The notes: generated from the sequence alone by a model not told the origin. DNA of 38,257 nt from Brevinematales bacterium (GCA_020059465.1 JAGVBZ010000048.1:1-38257), one strand, 5' to 3'; positions 12,504-20,490 are shown, counted from the first letter of the stretch. Made by a program: numbers and translations.

Positions 12504-13397
12504 TTAGGTGTTCACGAATTTCGCCATCAACTGCGGGAACCCGAATCCGGCGTTACCCTCGGAGTCGACGCCGACGTCGACCGATTTATCGTTGAACGTA
12601 TTGTCACGGGTCGCCACTTCCGGCCCCTGCGATTCGACGAACAGCAGAGGCTTCATACCCTGCTTCGTGCTGGCGAAATACCAGTCGTTCGCGTCGGCGA
12701 GGCGCGCGTCGGTAATCAGCGTATAACGCCCGTAGTAGGGGTTGTTCGATCCTGCGCGCATTGCGATGCCGACAGCCTCCTCGAACTTGCCGACCGCTTC
12801 GGGCGGGCAGACGATGAGGTCGGGGATGACGTTCAGCGCGCGTCCCTGATCGTTCGGGTAACGAGCCATCGCGGAGCGGCCGATAGCGATATCGGTCAGG
12901 ATATGATCGGCAGTATCCACCCCGTTACCGGTGAACAGGTTCTTGAATAAGCGCACTCCGGTGATATCGCTGAAGAACGGTACACCGTCGAACGCATATT
13001 CGGACTCGCCCGCTTCCAGCAGGTCGTAGATCACATTGGCGGGATACTGGTTACGGAATCCCTGACCCATACTGGTGACCCGGTCGCGGAGCATCTGCGA
13101 CAGTTTCGTCCCGGAACGGTCGAACGCTTTTTTATAGAGAACCTTGACCGCCATCGACCATGCGCGCTTCCGTACGGTATAGTCATAATCTTTTAGCGTC
13201 TCGATGATGCGCGGCCCGATCCATTCCACAACTGTCGGAAGCTGTCCGATCCATTCGAGCACTGTCAGGTTTTCGGAATCATGTATTTCCGATGTGAAAA
13301 ACTGATACGTGGTCGGGGTTTCCCGAAATACGTTATTGAAATCATCCCGTATCATTTTTTCGATACGGTTGAGTTCGTCGATTGAAATTCTCGGCAT
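12504..13397 (-). CDS. Major capsid protein, Mu gpT-like
   Basis: 297 aa. The pattern matches the Mu-like major head subunit: MPRISIDELNRIEKMIRDDF, TVLEWIGQLPTVVEWIGPR, DYTVRKRAWSMAVKVLYKKA, PDLIVCPPEAVGKFEEAVG and the end FGFPQLMAKFVNT. It forms the icosahedral shell. It follows the decoration and protease/scaffold genes as in Mu. The start ATG lies behind GGAGGGTAAATAA, directly next to a double-hairpin repeat. Confidence 0.93.
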   Translation of the reverse strand: MPRISIDELNRIEKMIRDDFNNVFRETPTTYQFFTSEIHDSENLTVLEWIGQLPTVVEWIGPRIIETLKDYDYTVRKRAWSMAVKVLYKKAFDRSGTKLSQMLRDRVTSMGQGFRNQYPANVIYDLLEAGESEYAFDGVPFFSDITGVRLFKNLFTGNGVDTADHILTDIAIGRSAMARYPNDQGRALNVIPDLIVCPPEAVGKFEEAVGIAMRAGSNNPYYGRYTLITDARLADANDWYFASTKQGMKPLLFVESQGPEVATRDNTFNDKSVDVGVDSEGNAGFGFPQLMAKFVNT

Positions 13398-13484: not shown

Positions 13485-14414
13485 TTAGAGCGAGAACACG
13501 AACAGGTTGACCTTTTTCGAGGCCAACGCCGCGCGCGCCGCGCCGGTAGTCGCATAAACCGTCACTTTTCCCGTGGCGCAGATGACGTCGGATATCGCTT
13601 TGTACGAACCCGGGTCTTCCGCGAACGTTGCAAACACAACACCCGCGCTGGTCATGGACGCGACCGCGATTTCGCCGGATGCGTCGGTCGTTTCCTGCGA
13701 GATGAGAACCGCGCTGGTAACAATCCTCTTGCCGTTCGCTTTCGCTACGCCCGCGCCTTTCGACTGGAGGTCGAGATCGACATCCGCGCCCGCTCCTTCG
13801 GCATAAAGCTTTCCGTTATACACGTCGACCGATTCGTTTCCTTTCGGTTTCAGTATGACGGCAACATTCGTTCCGGTACCCTTAGCCTCGACTTTGTTAT
13901 CGTCGAGACTCAGGACGGCCGCCTCTACAGCCGGATCGTCGGTCTCGATGGCGTCGCCCGCGGTCGTCGGACGTACGGCTGAATCCGCCGCGTCGCGGCT
14001 CATATCGCCGGAAACCGTCACGGGACCGGTAACGACCGGATCGATCAGCCAGCTTACACCGGCGACCACATCGATGATTTCACCGGCGATTACCCCATTG
14101 CCCGGAGTCATCGACAGCGCGGACGAACCGGAGAAGTAGACCATATTCCCGATATCGGTCTGCGCGGCGGCGGCGTTCGGGTATTCGAACGGAGTCCCGG
14201 CTTCGAGTTCGAGATAATCATCCTCTCCGTCTGCACCAGCGTTATGCTTCGCGATACCGGCGAAACGGTACCCGGAGACGTTATCGCCTTTACGGATTTT
14301 ACCGTCGGTATCGAACACGCCGAGTTCGTCGGTGTCGATTTCCTGCCCGGCGGCCATTATCCCCCGGCGTATTTTCGATACGCCGTTATTCCTGTACCTG
14401 AGTATCTGTGCCAT
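13485..14414 (-). CDS. Capsid decoration-like protein
   Basis: 309 aa. The N-terminal 120 residues (QILRYRNNGVSKIRRGIMAA, DVVAGVSWLIDPVV) resemble DUF2190-type capsid cement proteins. A second, unrecognised beta-rich part follows from about residue 125, ending KVTVYATTGAARAALASKKV. It lies between protease/scaffold and capsid. The start overlaps the previous stop (TAATG). Head surface role inferred from position and pattern. Confidence 0.65.
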   Translation of the reverse strand: MAQILRYRNNGVSKIRRGIMAAGQEIDTDELGVFDTDGKIRKGDNVSGYRFAGIAKHNAGADGEDDYLELEAGTPFEYPNAAAAQTDIGNMVYFSGSSALSMTPGNGVIAGEIIDVVAGVSWLIDPVVTGPVTVSGDMSRDAADSAVRPTTAGDAIETDDPAVEAAVLSLDDNKVEAKGTGTNVAVILKPKGNESVDVYNGKLYAEGAGADVDLDLQSKGAGVAKANGKRIVTSAVLISQETTDASGEIAVASMTSAGVVFATFAEDPGSYKAISDVICATGKVTVYATTGAARAALASKKVNLFVFSL

Positions 14415-14833
14415 TATTTACCTCCTTCTTCAGGATGGTCGAGCGCGCTGACACATTCGTCCTCATCCGCGAAGTCTGCGGAACCGCGTGCCGTCCCTTT
14501 GGTGAATTTTTCTTTCCCGTCGACTGCGGCGACCGAGTTTTCAGGCACCATTTCGGCGAAACCCGCGAGGATACCGTCGATATCTCTTTCCGCGAAATCC
14601 GCTGTCCCCGATTTTTCCAGTTCGATGAAACGCAGAACGCGCTTCACCCATTCGTCCTTTTTCGCGGGCAATAAACGCCCTTTACCGATCATCTCGGCGT
14701 CGGCGAAGCTCGCGACTTTTCCCAGAAGCGCGTCGGATTCGCTTTTAGCGATTTCCGCTTTCAATCCGGCGTTCTCTTTATCTTTCGCCGCGATGTCAGC
14801 TTCCAGTTTTGCGATCTTTTCAGCATCCGTCAT
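14414..14833 (-). CDS. Putative nested scaffold protein (internal start in the protease gene)
   Basis: 139 aa in the same frame as the protease. ATG 14833 is preceded by GAGGAGGATACAGAC, a strong SD in the middle of the longer gene. The product begins MTDAEKIAKLEADIAAKDKE and is coiled-coil rich, as scaffolds are. Known: Mu encodes scaffold Z as the in-frame 3' part of protease gene I. Inference: the same arrangement operates here. Confidence 0.65.
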   Translation of the reverse strand: MTDAEKIAKLEADIAAKDKENAGLKAEIAKSESDALLGKVASFADAEMIGKGRLLPAKKDEWVKRVLRFIELEKSGTADFAERDIDGILAGFAEMVPENSVAAVDGKEKFTKGTARGSADFADEDECVSALDHPEEGGK

Positions 14834-15544
14834 GTCTGTATCCTCCTCTTTATTTTCTTCTGAATCGTCATTGCGAGCGACCGAAGGGAGTGAAGCAATC
14901 TCTTCACTTTCCGCGAAACTCGCGGGTTCACGAACAGGGATAAACTCCCGCTTGATATAATCAATCTCCCATACCGGCAGTATATTATCCGCCCTCTCCT
15001 GTCCCTCTTTTTCGATCAGATAATCACGGCAACGTCCCAACAAGATACCGACCGAGTTCAGGCGGTTCTGCACAGGATCGAGTCCCTCGAAGTCAGCGAG
15101 TTCGAGCGGCGTTTCTATCGAGACAGTCCCGTCTTCATGATCCGCGAACTGTACCGCTTCAAGTCCTTTCACTGCGGGTTGTACTGCTCCGAGCATTCCG
15201 ACATGCCGCAAATACCATTTTCCCGGCTCGGGATTATTGGCGGTATCCGGGGTGTACAAACTCGCCGACACATGGTCGTAATATCCCTCGCGATTCTTTT
15301 TGATCATCTCAGGTTTAATCCGGTCGATCTCGGCAAATAAGAGATTCCCGACTTTCTCCAGCCGGATAATGTCGCCCATCGCCGGGTCGGAGAATTCAGG
15401 GTGACCGATCACAAGCTTGGCGTCTCCGACTGCAGGGTTATACGTCTGCTCTAACTCGGAAAGAATTTCATCTGTGATATCGAACTCTTTTCCGTTTGTC
15501 CCGCGAAATTTCCCCGTCTTCAATATCTGTATCTTTTTTGCCAC
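14414..15544 (-). CDS. Prohead protease with scaffold domain, Mu gpI-like
   Basis: 376 aa, GTG start at 15544 behind AGGAGGGTATC. Residues 1-170 match the Mu I-type head maturation protease (FDITDEILSELEQTYNP, KLVIGHPEFSDPAMGDI, YYDHVSASLYTPD, YLRHVGMLGAVQPAVKG). It cleaves itself and the scaffold during head assembly. The C-terminal third is scaffold coiled coil with its own internal start. A dispersed repeat is read in frame near residue 215 (EEIASLPSVARNDDS), apparently tolerated in the linker between the domains. Confidence 0.88.
   Translation of the reverse strand: MAKKIQILKTGKFRGTNGKEFDITDEILSELEQTYNPAVGDAKLVIGHPEFSDPAMGDIIRLEKVGNLLFAEIDRIKPEMIKKNREGYYDHVSASLYTPDTANNPEPGKWYLRHVGMLGAVQPAVKGLEAVQFADHEDGTVSIETPLELADFEGLDPVQNRLNSVGILLGRCRDYLIEKEGQERADNILPVWEIDYIKREFIPVREPASFAESEEIASLPSVARNDDSEENKEEDTDMTDAEKIAKLEADIAAKDKENAGLKAEIAKSESDALLGKVASFADAEMIGKGRLLPAKKDEWVKRVLRFIELEKSGTADFAERDIDGILAGFAEMVPENSVAAVDGKEKFTKGTARGSADFADEDECVSALDHPEEGGK
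14867..14903. repeat. Dispersed repeat inside the protease/scaffold gene
   Basis: GTCATTGCGAGCGACCGAAG followed by GGAGTGAAGCAATCTC is the same family as 12124-12192. It is translated in frame as EIASLPSVARND, between the protease and scaffold parts. Confidence 0.75.
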
Positions 15545-15589: not shown

Positions 15590-15733
15590 TTATTTAATGC
15601 TGGACTTGACTTTCCGATAATCCTGTAGTAGACTATTTGTAGAGCGTTTGGCCGAATCGATTTCCGGGAGTAGGCTTGATACCGTAAATCCCCGGATTAG
15701 ACAGGCGGAGACAAGCTCCTCCGCGACTGCCAC
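15590..15733 (-). CDS. Doubtful 47-aa open frame after the toxin fusion gene
   Basis: A GTG-initiated frame (MVAVAEELVSACLIRG...) runs to TAA at 15590 in the 200-bp gap between the portal-MuF-nuclease gene and the protease. A TTG lies one codon upstream. No good SD is visible, and the region forms hairpins (GCGGAG...CTCCGC at 15706-15724; CCGGGA...TCCCCGG at 15669-15700), so it may instead be structured RNA. It is noted because an immunity gene would be expected here. Confidence 0.2.
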   Translation of the reverse strand: MAVAEELVSACLIRGFTVSSLLPEIDSAKRSTNSLLQDYRKVKSSIK

Positions 15734-15744
15734 CAACGATAGGC

Positions 15745-18591
15745 TTATACGCTCTTTATTTTTTCCTTAGCTCCTTTCTTAAAAATCAGATATCCCATCC
15801 GGTTATTATCGATGCTCCTGTTCGGGTAAATAGTCCACCCGGACGGAATTCCCCCGTATTGCTGGACAACCAACTCCACCGCTTTCCCGTTGATCATCTT
15901 GATGTACTCGTACGATAACACCGTCTGTTTATCAGCGGTTAAATAATGAATATTCATCCAAATTTCATCCGGGTCGGTCAGTACATTTTCCAGCCCGTCA
16001 AGTAAACTCATCCTCTCTTTATCTTTATCGATATGGGAAATAAACTGCTTCGGGTTGATAAATACCGGTTTACCTAGCGCGTCTTGAATGAAGGCTTTAT
16101 CCGCCAATTTCTCCGCGAGCATTTTCTCGCCGGTTTTAGCGTCGTACTTTCCGAGTTTCATTTCCGTTTTATATCCCTGATCCTTAAACGATTTTAATCC
16201 TAACTCCTGCCAGTTCTTCGTTTCGAACGGTATTCTTGCGCCTTTCGCATCCGGACGCAATTCCTTCAAATCCGCGAGTTTCTTTTGTATCCACGCATCG
16301 CTTTTGACTTCCGCCGGATTATGTGCGAATCCGTCGTCGGGCATCATGGGCGCGGCCGGGTCGATGTTTCCGGGGACATTTCCCATCTCCGTCTGCGTCC
16401 CGAACTGCTGGGAGAACGACGGTATTCCCTTGCCGACCGTTATCCCCATTGCTTTAACCTGTCCGGCGGTCAACGCCCGTACGAAGCACCGGCACCGGAA
16501 CCCGTTCGGCGGATACCAGATACTCCAGAACGGGTCGTCATGGCGGCGGACAATCCCATGCATCGCGGCGTGTCCCGGACGCACACGGTCGTCTCCGACA
16601 GTCACATACATCCAGTACGGCAGGAATTCCGCCGAAGCCTTCATCTGCCCGTAACGCCCCGACATATAGGCGGTCTGCAGGTTTTGCAAATAGGATAACC
16701 GGAGGTCGTTTATCGCCAGTAACTTCGGGTCTATCCCGGACTTAAATTGCTCGTAAGTCTGTCCTTCGTCGAGCGCCTTGGCGAGTTTATCGAGAATACC
16801 CTGCGCGGTCTCCGCTTTCGATATCCCTGTCACAGCGAACGCATAGTTTTTTTGCTCGTCCGAAAGGAGTTTGAATTCGGCGTCCGACATCGCCAGTTTC
16901 GATGACAGGAACTTCTTCGCGCCGGAATATTCCATCATCCCGGTTTTCGGATCCCAGTCGCCATCCGCGAAATCGGCAGATGCGCCATCCTCATTGATCT
17001 GCCGGATCACCTGCCTGCGTCCCAGCGCGTTCATTGTGATCAGCGACCGCGCGAGAAAATCTGACGCGCCCGCAGTGACCTTTGTCGTATTACCGACCCC
17101 CACGACGGGGGAAGCGCCGTCGATGCCACGGATGGCATGGAGACGGCCGATTTCTATTATCTTTCCTGCGGCCTCGTTGAAATCCGACGAGGTTTCTACC
17201 GCGTTTTCAATCTCGTTTACAGTATCTTCGAAGTACCCGTAAAAATCCCCGAATCCCTTTTCCGCGAGATCTTCCGCTTCCTTCGCTTCCCGTTCGGCCT
17301 GCGCAACAATATCTTCTATAGTAAGATGTTTTTGCTCCGGGTCAGCGAATTCTACTCTATAATCCCGGCTCTTTTTTTTTTCCGACCCGCCGGATGCGGG
17401 GAGTCCCGTGGTTAAATCAGCCGGTTTGATTACCTCCTTCAGGTCTCCGGGCTGGTAATCGTATACGCGCTGGAGGTACTGCTCGGTAGGCTGCCAACCC
17501 ATCTCGAATACCTTCGCGTCGCGTTCCGCGCGGATGGACTGCACATCCTCTTCCTCGAAGAATTCGAATTTCGGATATGAGCTTACGGTGAAGTTCAGGT
17601 CGACCAGACGGCGGATCATCCGGTTCATTACCCCGCTGATCAGGCGCTTATCGCTATCCTGAATATCCCCGCGCACAGTCTCAGCCATATCCTCGTTTCC
17701 GAGTTTTCCCGGCGTGGAGTCGGCGGTCGCGGAATGTCCGGTAAGCGTCTTACTGATAGACGAATCGCAGAATTTCACCATTTCATTAAAAAGGTCGCTT
17801 GACGCCTTTTTATCGACTCCGAGAGTTTCCGGCTTGCTTTCTCCCCAGAATACCCCGGCCCCGGACGATTTCATTTCATAAAGCATATCGAGATACTTAT
17901 CTATTTCATCGTCTGCCGGGCGCGTCGGCAGGTTGATAAATACGGGGTCGTCGCCGAACCGTTCGATGAAACTGATCCAATATCTGATATCGCCTTTCTT
18001 AAAATGAACCGGCCAGAAACAGCGCGCGAGTTCCGATTCTCCGTACGGGTTACGATATCCGGCGCGGTACTGCACCAGTTCGACCTGACGGTTTAACCCG
18101 GACACGATCACCGGATCGCCGTCGGTAGGATTGTTCTCCGAACGGAAACGAAGGTTATTCTCCGTATCGAAGAAGAACCATTCCGCAGGCCGCCCGATCA
18201 GCGCGTCATAAACGATACGCTCACCATCGCGACCGAGTATGGTTTCGATAGGGGAATACCCCAGCCATACGGCTTCGAGGATGTCCCGGTAAAGATTTTC
18301 CATATTCAGGGAATTCCATTGTTCGGTGATAAACCCGTGAGCGCGGCTGTCCAATCCGGCGGCGTCCTTCTCCGATACAATCCGGTACTCGCAGCTCATC
18401 ACTCCGCTCTCGCGGGAGACGATGCACGAGTTGACCTGGCTGTCGTACGTCAGATCGCGGTAGACCGATACGTCGCCGCCCTTCGCTTCGAGTACCTTAT
18501 CGGGATTTGGCAACTGCGACGTGTATTGAAGGAAACTCTGCCATGTATTCTGCCGCCTGTATAGAGGTTTAAATTTGCCTATTTCGGGCAT
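15745..18591 (-). CDS. Portal (DUF935) - MuF - BECR-type nuclease fusion
   Basis: 948 aa from ATG 18591 (GGAG 10 nt upstream); a TTG at 18639 is less likely. Residues 1-420 are the Mu-type portal (QVNSCIVSRESGVMSCEYRI, YDALIGRPAEWFFFD, RCFWPVHFKKGDIRYW, KTLTGHSATADSTPG). Residues about 600-720 are MuF (QTAYMSGRYGQMKASAEFLP, VTVGDDRVRPGHAAMHG, PPNGFRCRCFVRAL). The last 110 residues (LGKPVFINPKQFISHIDKDK ... YGGIPSGWTIYPNRSID ... MGYLIFKK) resemble the phage Barnase-EndoU-ColicinE5/D-RelE (BECR) domain carried by MuF proteins as a virion-borne toxin. A double-hairpin repeat is translated near residue 505. Portal and MuF are usually separate genes in Mu-like phages, so the fusion is unusual. Confidence 0.87.
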   Translation of the reverse strand: MPEIGKFKPLYRRQNTWQSFLQYTSQLPNPDKVLEAKGGDVSVYRDLTYDSQVNSCIVSRESGVMSCEYRIVSEKDAAGLDSRAHGFITEQWNSLNMENLYRDILEAVWLGYSPIETILGRDGERIVYDALIGRPAEWFFFDTENNLRFRSENNPTDGDPVIVSGLNRQVELVQYRAGYRNPYGESELARCFWPVHFKKGDIRYWISFIERFGDDPVFINLPTRPADDEIDKYLDMLYEMKSSGAGVFWGESKPETLGVDKKASSDLFNEMVKFCDSSISKTLTGHSATADSTPGKLGNEDMAETVRGDIQDSDKRLISGVMNRMIRRLVDLNFTVSSYPKFEFFEEEDVQSIRAERDAKVFEMGWQPTEQYLQRVYDYQPGDLKEVIKPADLTTGLPASGGSEKKKSRDYRVEFADPEQKHLTIEDIVAQAEREAKEAEDLAEKGFGDFYGYFEDTVNEIENAVETSSDFNEAAGKIIEIGRLHAIRGIDGASPVVGVGNTTKVTAGASDFLARSLITMNALGRRQVIRQINEDGASADFADGDWDPKTGMMEYSGAKKFLSSKLAMSDAEFKLLSDEQKNYAFAVTGISKAETAQGILDKLAKALDEGQTYEQFKSGIDPKLLAINDLRLSYLQNLQTAYMSGRYGQMKASAEFLPYWMYVTVGDDRVRPGHAAMHGIVRRHDDPFWSIWYPPNGFRCRCFVRALTAGQVKAMGITVGKGIPSFSQQFGTQTEMGNVPGNIDPAAPMMPDDGFAHNPAEVKSDAWIQKKLADLKELRPDAKGARIPFETKNWQELGLKSFKDQGYKTEMKLGKYDAKTGEKMLAEKLADKAFIQDALGKPVFINPKQFISHIDKDKERMSLLDGLENVLTDPDEIWMNIHYLTADKQTVLSYEYIKMINGKAVELVVQQYGGIPSGWTIYPNRSIDNNRMGYLIFKKGAKEKIKSV
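17094..17152. repeat. Double-hairpin repeat, copy d, inside the portal fusion gene
   Basis: CGACCCCCACGACGGGGGAA is hairpin 1. GCCGTC...GACGGC encloses GCCA-CGGA-TGGC. It is translated in frame as IGRLHAIRGIDGASPVVGVG, in the linker between the portal and MuF domains. The length keeps the frame. Confidence 0.85.
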
Positions 18592-18852: not shown

Positions 18853-20490
18853 CTATACCCTGCCTTTTTTCTGGTCGAAATCCTTGTCGTTCCTCCGTAC
18901 CGGCCCGTCGTACCCGTCGAGGAATTTCCGCGATTCGCGCGTCCCGCCGCTTACGAAATCCGGCTTGATATTCCCCACCATCAGGAGTTCGTCCGCGCCC
19001 GCGAGCGCGTCAGGCCCGTCGTCATGGTCTGCTTTGGGGAAATATAGAAGCTGTTCGATCAGGAGCTGTATATCCCCGCCGCCCGCGCTGAGCGAAGCCG
19101 AAGCGTCTTTCGGGAATAATATTTTCCCGCGCTCGACCTTTGGCGTCAGCCGCTCGATCCTGTCCTGCTTGGGAATTTTATTCGTTACCAGTTTCAGCGG
19201 CAGGAGAAATCCCATCTCTTTACAGAGCGCGTCATACAACGGTTCGAGAAGCGACTGAAAGCCGTTCGCCTCGAACCCCGCGAAACGTACCCTGAACCCG
19301 CGCTTCACAAGATGCTGGTACATCCGGTAGGTCGCGTAAAGCATCGCATTGATCGACTGCCTCTGTATCCACGCTTGGATCACGTACTCTTTCATCGTCT
19401 CGTGATCCAGCGCGAGCGAAACGATTGCCTTATAATCGTTATGCGCCTGCGACCGCGCGGAAGGGTCGACCATCAGCACGGCGGTCATCCGCTGAGGATC
19501 GAGTTCGGAGGGATGGTAATACCTGATCCATTCCTCTTTAAAAAGCGCGTCCTCGTCGTCGAGCGGGTTGTTCTGGTACTCCTTCTCGAACGCCCGCGTG
19601 CCGATCTTTTCCCTGATCGCGAGGAGTTTGTCGAGCGGCCAAAGTTCCGGCCAAAGACTCGCGTCGTTTCCCTTCACGTCTTTCGTGATTGCGCGGTAAA
19701 CCTTCCGGTTCCAATTTCTGTACGGTTCGTTCTCATCGTCGGAGAACAGGATCGTACCGAGCGCGCACTTCTTGCGGATAATCGTTCCGATGTAAATCAG
19801 TGTACTGTATCCCCGTTTCATAGACGGGTATATAGCTTCCTTGATCGTCTGTAAAAGATCGCCGACCGTGCTTTGGCTCTGTGCTTCCTTATCCTTCTCG
19901 GGGTCGTCGATGATGATCAGGTCGGGACGGTGCTGGCGGTGCCGGAATCCCCGGACGCCCTGTTTCCAACTGCGGGAGAATACCCGCACTCCATTCGCGA
20001 CAAAATCGTTTTTCTCGGCCTCGGTAACCAAATCACCATGATCGTTAAAATCCTGCGCGATACGCCGGTTATGCCGGAACTCGATCAGGATAAATTCCAC
20101 GAGGTCTGATGCGAGATCGTCGTTCGCCGAAACGATTACGACGAAGTTCCGGGTGCGGAAGCAGATCGACCAGATCACATAAGCGAAACTGACGACCGTT
20201 GATTTTCCGAATCCGCGCGGGGCCGCCCGTACTATCGGATTGCAAATATATTCCCGCCGCTCCATCTCTTCTATCAGCTCCCGGTGAAATCCGGCAGGTT
20301 CGCTTGTACTCCCATCAGGGGTGCCTTCCACGTAATGCGGAAGGTAAAGTTTCATAAACTCAAAGAAGCTCGATTTTGCTAACGTCCGGCGGAGTGATTT
20401 ATCCTTTGGATCGAGAGGGAGAACGTCCTCATCTAAAATTCTGAGGATATCGTCGACTTCCCGCCTTGCCGCGAAAATTCCTACCGGCAT
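18853..20490 (-). CDS. terL: Terminase large subunit
   Basis: 545 aa. The DNA-packaging motor. Walker A APRGFGKST near residue 90, Walker B LIIIDDPEKD near 190 and the nuclease part starting VLMVDPSARSQAHNDYKAI near 348 are clear. The start ATG overlaps the previous gene. A dispersed repeat (CTGAGCGAAGCCGAAG core, 19083-19100) is translated in frame as DASASLSAGGGD near residue 466, inside the nuclease domain, so it must lie in a tolerant loop if the enzyme is active. Confidence 0.93.
   Translation of the reverse strand: MPVGIFAARREVDDILRILDEDVLPLDPKDKSLRRTLAKSSFFEFMKLYLPHYVEGTPDGSTSEPAGFHRELIEEMERREYICNPIVRAAPRGFGKSTVVSFAYVIWSICFRTRNFVVIVSANDDLASDLVEFILIEFRHNRRIAQDFNDHGDLVTEAEKNDFVANGVRVFSRSWKQGVRGFRHRQHRPDLIIIDDPEKDKEAQSQSTVGDLLQTIKEAIYPSMKRGYSTLIYIGTIIRKKCALGTILFSDDENEPYRNWNRKVYRAITKDVKGNDASLWPELWPLDKLLAIREKIGTRAFEKEYQNNPLDDEDALFKEEWIRYYHPSELDPQRMTAVLMVDPSARSQAHNDYKAIVSLALDHETMKEYVIQAWIQRQSINAMLYATYRMYQHLVKRGFRVRFAGFEANGFQSLLEPLYDALCKEMGFLLPLKLVTNKIPKQDRIERLTPKVERGKILFPKDASASLSAGGGDIQLLIEQLLYFPKADHDDGPDALAGADELLMVGNIKPDFVSGGTRESRKFLDGYDGPVRRNDKDFDQKKGRV

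Follow-up and report, generated by a model that had tools for sequence, protein, structure and literature searches.

A slippery A-run at the portal/MuF join of a Brevinematales Mu-like phage is predicted to give a short portal and a long portal-MuF-PBECR2 protein

A single reading frame of 948 amino acids (106.8 kDa) unites the portal, MuF and PBECR2 domains of a Mu-like phage in a genome from the Brevinematales, an order of spirochaetes. The window analysed here is one contig of 38,257 bases, and the frame is coded from position 18591 down to 15745; the plus strand over this interval is riddled with stops. A run of ten adenines (A10) lies at the join between the portal and the MuF part. Based on the comparison with related phages, we consider it probable that programmed slippage at this join yields two products, a short portal of about 411 amino acids and the long 948-amino-acid protein, instead of a toxin on every portal subunit. 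Directly visible in the DNA are the three-domain frame, the slippery run, the near stops, the fixed offset of the MuF frame, the absent MuF start, the enrichment of a short motif and the swapping of the domain behind MuF.

All three domains exceed their Pfam cut-offs (for PBECR2, PF18810, 56.7 bits against 27.1), and PHROGs labels the frame as portal and as 'minor head protein and DNA pilot'. The preliminary description of this stretch, which gave no strand, had reported a portal, MuF and a BECR-like domain in one frame of this length, and this is borne out on the minus strand. Its placing of the C-terminal domain in the PBECR family and in the context of MuF polymorphic toxins is supported, and the invariant threonine is retained. 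It was also right that Mu-like phages normally keep separate portal and MuF genes: of the 80 best viral and the 80 best genome-contig matches, 78 in each set do not have the two in one frame. Not supported in this form is its view that each subunit of the portal ring carries the toxin, since from the conserved A10 or T-run recoding site one would expect a second, toxin-free product, so that a part of the subunits alone would bear the toxin. Such a simple-fusion reading overlooks relatives in which the same protein seems to arise through a frameshift.

The PBECR2 and MuF domains of the window are the sole copies of each in the Brevinematales genome. An identical copy of the fusion is present in IMG/VR (L022), possibly from the same data. 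Portal_Mu, MuF and PBECR2 also share one frame in six distant relatives at about 30-40% identity (G004/L038, G007, G009, G065 and, from IMG/VR, L150 and L151), which rules out a chance or single-assembly fusion, and an independent assembly, L245, a near-copy of L151 from another metagenome, has the same fused join. The portal-MuF-PBECR2 fusion is real but rare. PBECR2 also terminates ordinary separate MuF proteins (e.g. L106, L156, L160); the MuF frames at L311-L332 end in a relative of the PBECR2-type domain, and those of Rhodobacter phage RcapMu and its relatives match too. The pairing of PBECR2 with MuF is therefore ordinary; what stands out is its attachment to the portal.

The A10 is followed closely by a stop in both alternative frames (Table 1), and the predicted window product of 411-412 amino acids matches the size of the short portals of most split relatives (open frames of 393-430 amino acids). 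The run stands at the same place in four further fused genes (L023/G042, L136/G065, L150, L151) and is in frame in L245 as well. Each of the five fused A10 genes has stops in both alternative frames 0-6 codons past the run, and between L151 and L245 the A10 is retained while the surrounding codons differ. The fused L025 carries a T7 with an immediate stop in the -1 frame.

It was the RcapMu locus that first pointed to the run: its portal ends in a poly-A within the overlap, and the open MuF frame has no good start. We counted the portal-MuF joins of all collected loci and then of about 40 added regions from the phylum. In 23 split pairs the small portal/MuF overlap holds A8-A10 or T7-T10. These pairs come from spirochaete genomes, Treponema-type ones among them and several assembled as single contigs, and from the phages RcapMu and RcWaterboi (65% GC) and RR1-B. 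MuF is at -1 in 23/23 overlaps with a run of at least 7 and in 14/72 without a run (Fisher 9e-13), and MuF has an ATG close to the portal stop at 1 of the 23 run-bearing junctions against 89 of 101 others (Fisher 8e-15); it has to be set against these numbers that run-bearing phages are related, so that both p-values overstate independence. Overlapping pairs without a run have MuF at +1 in 58 cases and at -1 in 14. For the runs of at least 8, present in 17 of the 23 pairs, no equally long run occurs in any other equal-length stretch of the same locus. In six pairs (L003, L249, L250, L252, L256, L296) the MuF frame is closed by a stop immediately before the run and is open from the run onward. 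The simplest reading of these junctions is that MuF of the run-bearing pairs is produced only via the portal.

The phase of the runs bears on the mechanism. A-runs were found in all three codon phases, which transcriptional slippage allows, and every T-run is in phase 2, the phase needed for an X_XXY_YYZ heptamer of ribosomal -1 slippage. The A10 of the window holds the in-frame heptamers A_AAA_AAA and A_AAA_AAG; with the latter, slippage there may also be ribosomal. In the portal tree, run-bearing or fused phages fall into three clades, and the phages with T-runs group as a single clade inside those with A-runs; the junction thus stayed slippery through a change of base.

Several relatives show further arrangements of these genes. 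In 'Spirochaetes bacterium GWB1_27_13' (G042; L023:5579-8638, also L099) the portal and MuF are fused with no PBECR2, and a GNAT acetyltransferase domain (residues ~443-520) sits inside the portal-MuF linker shortly ahead of the A10 (codon 536). The genome G065 harbours a pair of such phages: L136 (contig C234) is fused and has PBECR2 and A10, and L296 (C217) is split with A10, so that one host genome holds both states. In L012/L032 (G025) an A10 is located between two frames that jointly make MuF, about 230 nt past the portal stop instead of at the end of the portal, which may mark another site of slippage. The second portal of G009 (contig C2, L030:6547-7786) is split into three overlapping frames and resembles a decaying prophage copy. 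L027 (G006) and L036 (G011) have a short portal of about 377 amino acids and no MuF recognised alongside, with the protease as the next gene in L027; their MuF may have been lost or moved.

The preliminary description had also suggested that the toxin might be freed by the gpI-type protease, for which the motif F[AS][DE] offers indirect support. The protease/scaffold protein of the window contains eight copies (0.45 expected), and most of its close homologues contain 4-9 (about 0.5 expected). In the long window protein, two F-A-D motifs flank the linker preceding MuF, a number that is not beyond chance taken alone. Across 37 non-redundant portals, the motif occurs 31 times in the tails against 5.8 expected, mostly 17-36 residues past the portal core, and it follows the run within 40 amino acids in 17 of 30 long forms (2.3 expected). 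For phage Mu, the last 124 amino acids of the portal gp29 are missing from the virion structure, which has been attributed to protease I (PMC11915804). We infer that F[AS][DE] marks cleavage sites of the maturation protease in this phage group, and the toxin half may be cut free at the copies flanking the linker. We rejected the motif as a general Mu protease signal, the protease and portal tail of phage Mu being without it; it is also absent from some distant protease-bearing relatives and from many Gastranaerophilales phages. A group-specific signal of the maturation protease is possible.

The part after MuF is exchanged among run-bearing relatives. There we found CdiA_C (L266; weaker in L270), Gln_amidase (L281), a weak Tox-MPTase4 (L284) and LPD3 (L265), and in the clade of the window PBECR2. 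This polymorphism supports a toxin slot. T920, at the active-site Thr/Ser position, is invariant among 16 aligned sequences; for the His or Arg expected in the N-terminal helix the window has H853 and R859, but both columns vary and the register of the alignment is uncertain. For the comparison with BECR folds that the preliminary description had proposed, an AlphaFold2 (AF2) model of the C-terminal domain (predicted local distance difference test, pLDDT, 76; predicted template modelling score, pTM, 0.73) shows helices followed by a four- to five-stranded sheet in the expected order. No solved structure matched, either by profile or by Foldseek against the PDB (E<=0.001), a result that does not count against the fold, because the domain is divergent and the quality of the model moderate. 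A search of a viral library with an earlier model returned an LPD3 polyvalent protein as the top match (probability 1.00, E 7e-3), and the best matches were polyvalent proteins. On this basis, the nuclease activity of PBECR2 is a family-based prediction. A tblastn search of cultured phages with the PBECR2 domain of the window alone gave no match; more typical PBECR2 domains as queries match RcapMu, RcWaterboi and RR1-B. Viral scans with single PBECR2 queries returned few or no loci, with the exception of one query.

Not all observations favour slippage at the A10 of the window. The hairpin predicted past the run is weak (dG -13.4 for 60 nt, z -2.2), and the fused genes L024 and L026 have no slippery run or heptamer; they may be hard-wired fusions, and a plain fusion is therefore viable too. 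Given the EKKK peptide and the codon usage of the phage, an A10 appears in 23% of synonymous recodings (P=0.23), and because it is not rare at this one site, the case for slippage rests on the comparison. As to cleavage, F[AS][DE] is not the general signal of Mu, because phage Mu lacks it. The main alternative at the join is a hard-wired fusion in which all twelve portal subunits per ring carry MuF and PBECR2, perhaps trimmed by the protease, and the A10 is a leftover. The uninterrupted annotated frame agrees with this, as do a protease motif that could free the extra domains from all subunits, the portal-MuF gene fusions known in Microbacterium phages (PMC7302621) and three fused relatives without an A-run. 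We nevertheless regard it as unlikely, since the A10 persists in five fused genes at only about 30-40% protein identity, and in L151/L245 despite nearby codon changes, both alternative frames close at once, and the frame-0 product of the relatives is a short portal of equal size. Moreover, SPP1 has only one or two MuF copies per capsid. The same three relatives without an A-run offer nothing to misread and so speak against an assembly or homopolymer error, by which the true run would be A9 or A11 and the gene would be split with no fusion in the DNA. The length of long homopolymers is error-prone in short reads, and an A9 would give the window gene the split arrangement of its relatives. However, the window and the IMG/VR copy agree (perhaps from the same data), and L151 and L245, diverged assemblies of two metagenomes, both have an in-frame A10, which makes an error of this kind very unlikely.

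The run might instead be phase-variable or degenerate, a hot spot of replication slippage at which gained or lost bases toggle the gene between fused and split with no designed product ratio. This would account for a clade in which the same A10 occurs in fused (L002, L150, L151) and split (L003) genes, and the loss of a single A would split the window gene at 412 amino acids. Neutral decay, however, would yield other offsets and broken MuF genes, whereas the split forms, T-runs included, keep MuF intact and exactly one slip away (23/23); we regard this explanation as very unlikely. The function of the end domain is a separate matter, compatible with slippage at the join: PBECR2 might be a structural or RNA-binding part of the head and not a toxin. 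According to Iyer et al. (PMC5512222), Mu's own MuF ends in a PBECR that is inactive and may bind RNA, and the basic catalytic residue is not clearly kept in the window. We found no convincing immunity open reading frame (<150 amino acids) directly downstream, where only a frame of 47-48 amino acids with a GTG/TTG start lies 200 nt away, ahead of the protease; such a frame was reported for 89% of MuF toxins and is a usual, not a strict, feature. Its absence agrees equally well with a toxin, with an effector of early infection and with an inactive domain. With the invariant T920 and the CdiA_C and papain-fold deamidase toxin domains in the same polymorphic slot of other run-bearing phages on the other side, a non-toxin role is a serious possibility, which we rate somewhat below that of a toxin.

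The coordinates of the features are compiled in Table 1. The head module around the fusion is of the Mu type and complete, consisting of the small and large terminase subunits (TerS, TerL), portal-MuF, protease/scaffold, a structural protein, major head protein, adaptor and neck. The window also encodes a tape measure protein and MuA-like and MuB-like transposition proteins (phrog_310 E=5e-95; phrog_296 E=1e-64). Because of these head-module neighbours and the MuA/MuB-like proteins, the carrier of the fusion is, by its gene content, a Mu-like transposable phage; relatives at the nucleotide level were not found among cultured phages. A partly palindromic, repeat-like stretch of 120 bp between the fusion and the protease (15614-15733) was considered as a dispersed element and dismissed, as it is single-copy in the genome; it holds no convincing gene.

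Table 1. Position of the fusion, its parts and neighbouring genes in the window.
Feature	Position	Strand	Remarks
Portal-MuF-PBECR2 reading frame, 948 amino acids, predicted long product	15745..18591	minus	ATG to stop
Portal_Mu (DUF935) core, residues 42-378	17458..18468	minus	Pfam E=6e-70; PDB relatives 8rka, 9khx
A10 homopolymer at the portal/MuF join, codons 404-407, proposed slippage site	17372..17381	minus	only run of at least 9 in the 38-kb window; kept in relatives
Possible RNA hairpin directly after the run	17334..17371	minus	dG -13.4 (60 nt), z -2.2; weak
TAG stop, -1 / one-A-added frame, ends predicted 411-amino-acid short product (46.9 kDa)	17357..17359	minus	
TAG stop, +1 / one-A-lost frame, ends predicted 412-amino-acid product	17352..17354	minus	
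F-A-D motif 1, residues 415-417, candidate maturation-protease site, long product only	17341..17349	minus	
F-A-D motif 2, residues 541-543, candidate maturation-protease site ahead of the MuF core	16963..16971	minus	
Phage_Mu_F (MuF) domain, residues 598-704	16480..16800	minus	Pfam E=3e-20
PBECR2 (PF18810), residues 828-938, predicted RNase-like toxin	15778..16110	minus	Pfam E=3.4e-15
Terminase large subunit, upstream neighbour	18853..20490	minus	phrog_38 E=5e-86
Mu gpI-type head maturation protease/scaffold, eight F[AS][DE] motifs	14414..15544	minus	phrog_976 E=1e-66
Major head protein	12504..13397	minus	phrog_371 E=3e-34

Fusions of PBECR to MuF and portal domains are already published, listed among the simplest PBECR architectures (Iyer et al., 2017, PMC5512222); in the parts of that article considered here a slippery run or two products are not mentioned, and the C-terminal domain of our case is PBECR2. 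The MuF polymorphic toxins of Jamet et al. (2017, PMC5576092) share with the window a MuF followed by an exchangeable C-terminal toxin, the packaging module and a temperate-type phage. In contrast to them, MuF is here covalently attached to the portal, apparently made by slippage and accompanied by no clear immunity gene; the word frameshift is absent from their text. In the Microbacterium phage clusters EA3, EA5, EA8 and EB (PMC7302621) portal and MuF-like functions also reside in one gene, but these are siphophages of Actinobacteria, and no toxin or slippage was reported for the fusion. A likeness in mechanism is offered by dnaX of Thermus thermophilus (PMC5009743), in which frame 0 gives the long product and slippage leads to shorter products because both other frames stop nearby; as dnaX encodes a cellular DNA polymerase subunit and not a phage portal, the analogy is one of mechanism only. 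RcapMu (NC_016165; portal RcapMu36, MuF RcapMu37) has an A8 in the overlap, MuF at -1 and a PBECR2-like sequence on MuF, and differs from the window in its split default, a GC content of 65% and in being a cultured phage. Its GenBank record notes that a 'possible +1 frameshift would allow readthrough', a direction that differs from the measured -1 offset. We found no report of recoding at the portal/MuF junction in the open-access texts searched.

According to the slippage model, RNA polymerase (or the ribosome) would slip on the A10 in a fraction of events and give the short portal, and the unslipped frame of the window would give the portal-MuF-PBECR2 protein. The split relatives would work in reverse: their frame 0 would encode the short portal, and the long form, with a MuF part lacking its own start, would arise by a -1 shift. 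From the sequences we infer the two products and a mixed ring with few long subunits: assembled from both forms, the portal would bring a controlled, probably small number of MuF-toxin units into the head. The maturation protease would then cut at the F[AS][DE] sites past the join and ahead of the MuF core, and the freed MuF-PBECR2 would be ejected with the DNA, with PBECR2 acting as an RNase effector.

The current view is that MuF toxins travel to the host cell within the phage head. If the model is true, a slippage site that turns a fraction of the portal subunits into toxin carriers would explain a small and fixed loading of MuF toxin, as recoding would provide the low MuF copy number covalently and equip a regulated fraction of the subunits, instead of all of them, with the toxin. 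It would also account for the 'fused' and 'split' portal-MuF genes that gene callers report in sister phages, and the portal would join the virion proteins that phages are known to lengthen by recoding. The model predicts exact products, and the cultured phages RcapMu and RcWaterboi carry the run. Whether it extends to a wide class of Mu-like phages we consider evenly balanced: in such phages slippage, transcriptional at A-runs and ribosomal at T-runs, would set the count of portal subunits with an attached, protease-releasable MuF toxin, which would make the portal ring a dosing device for polymorphic toxins that enter the host along with the genome.
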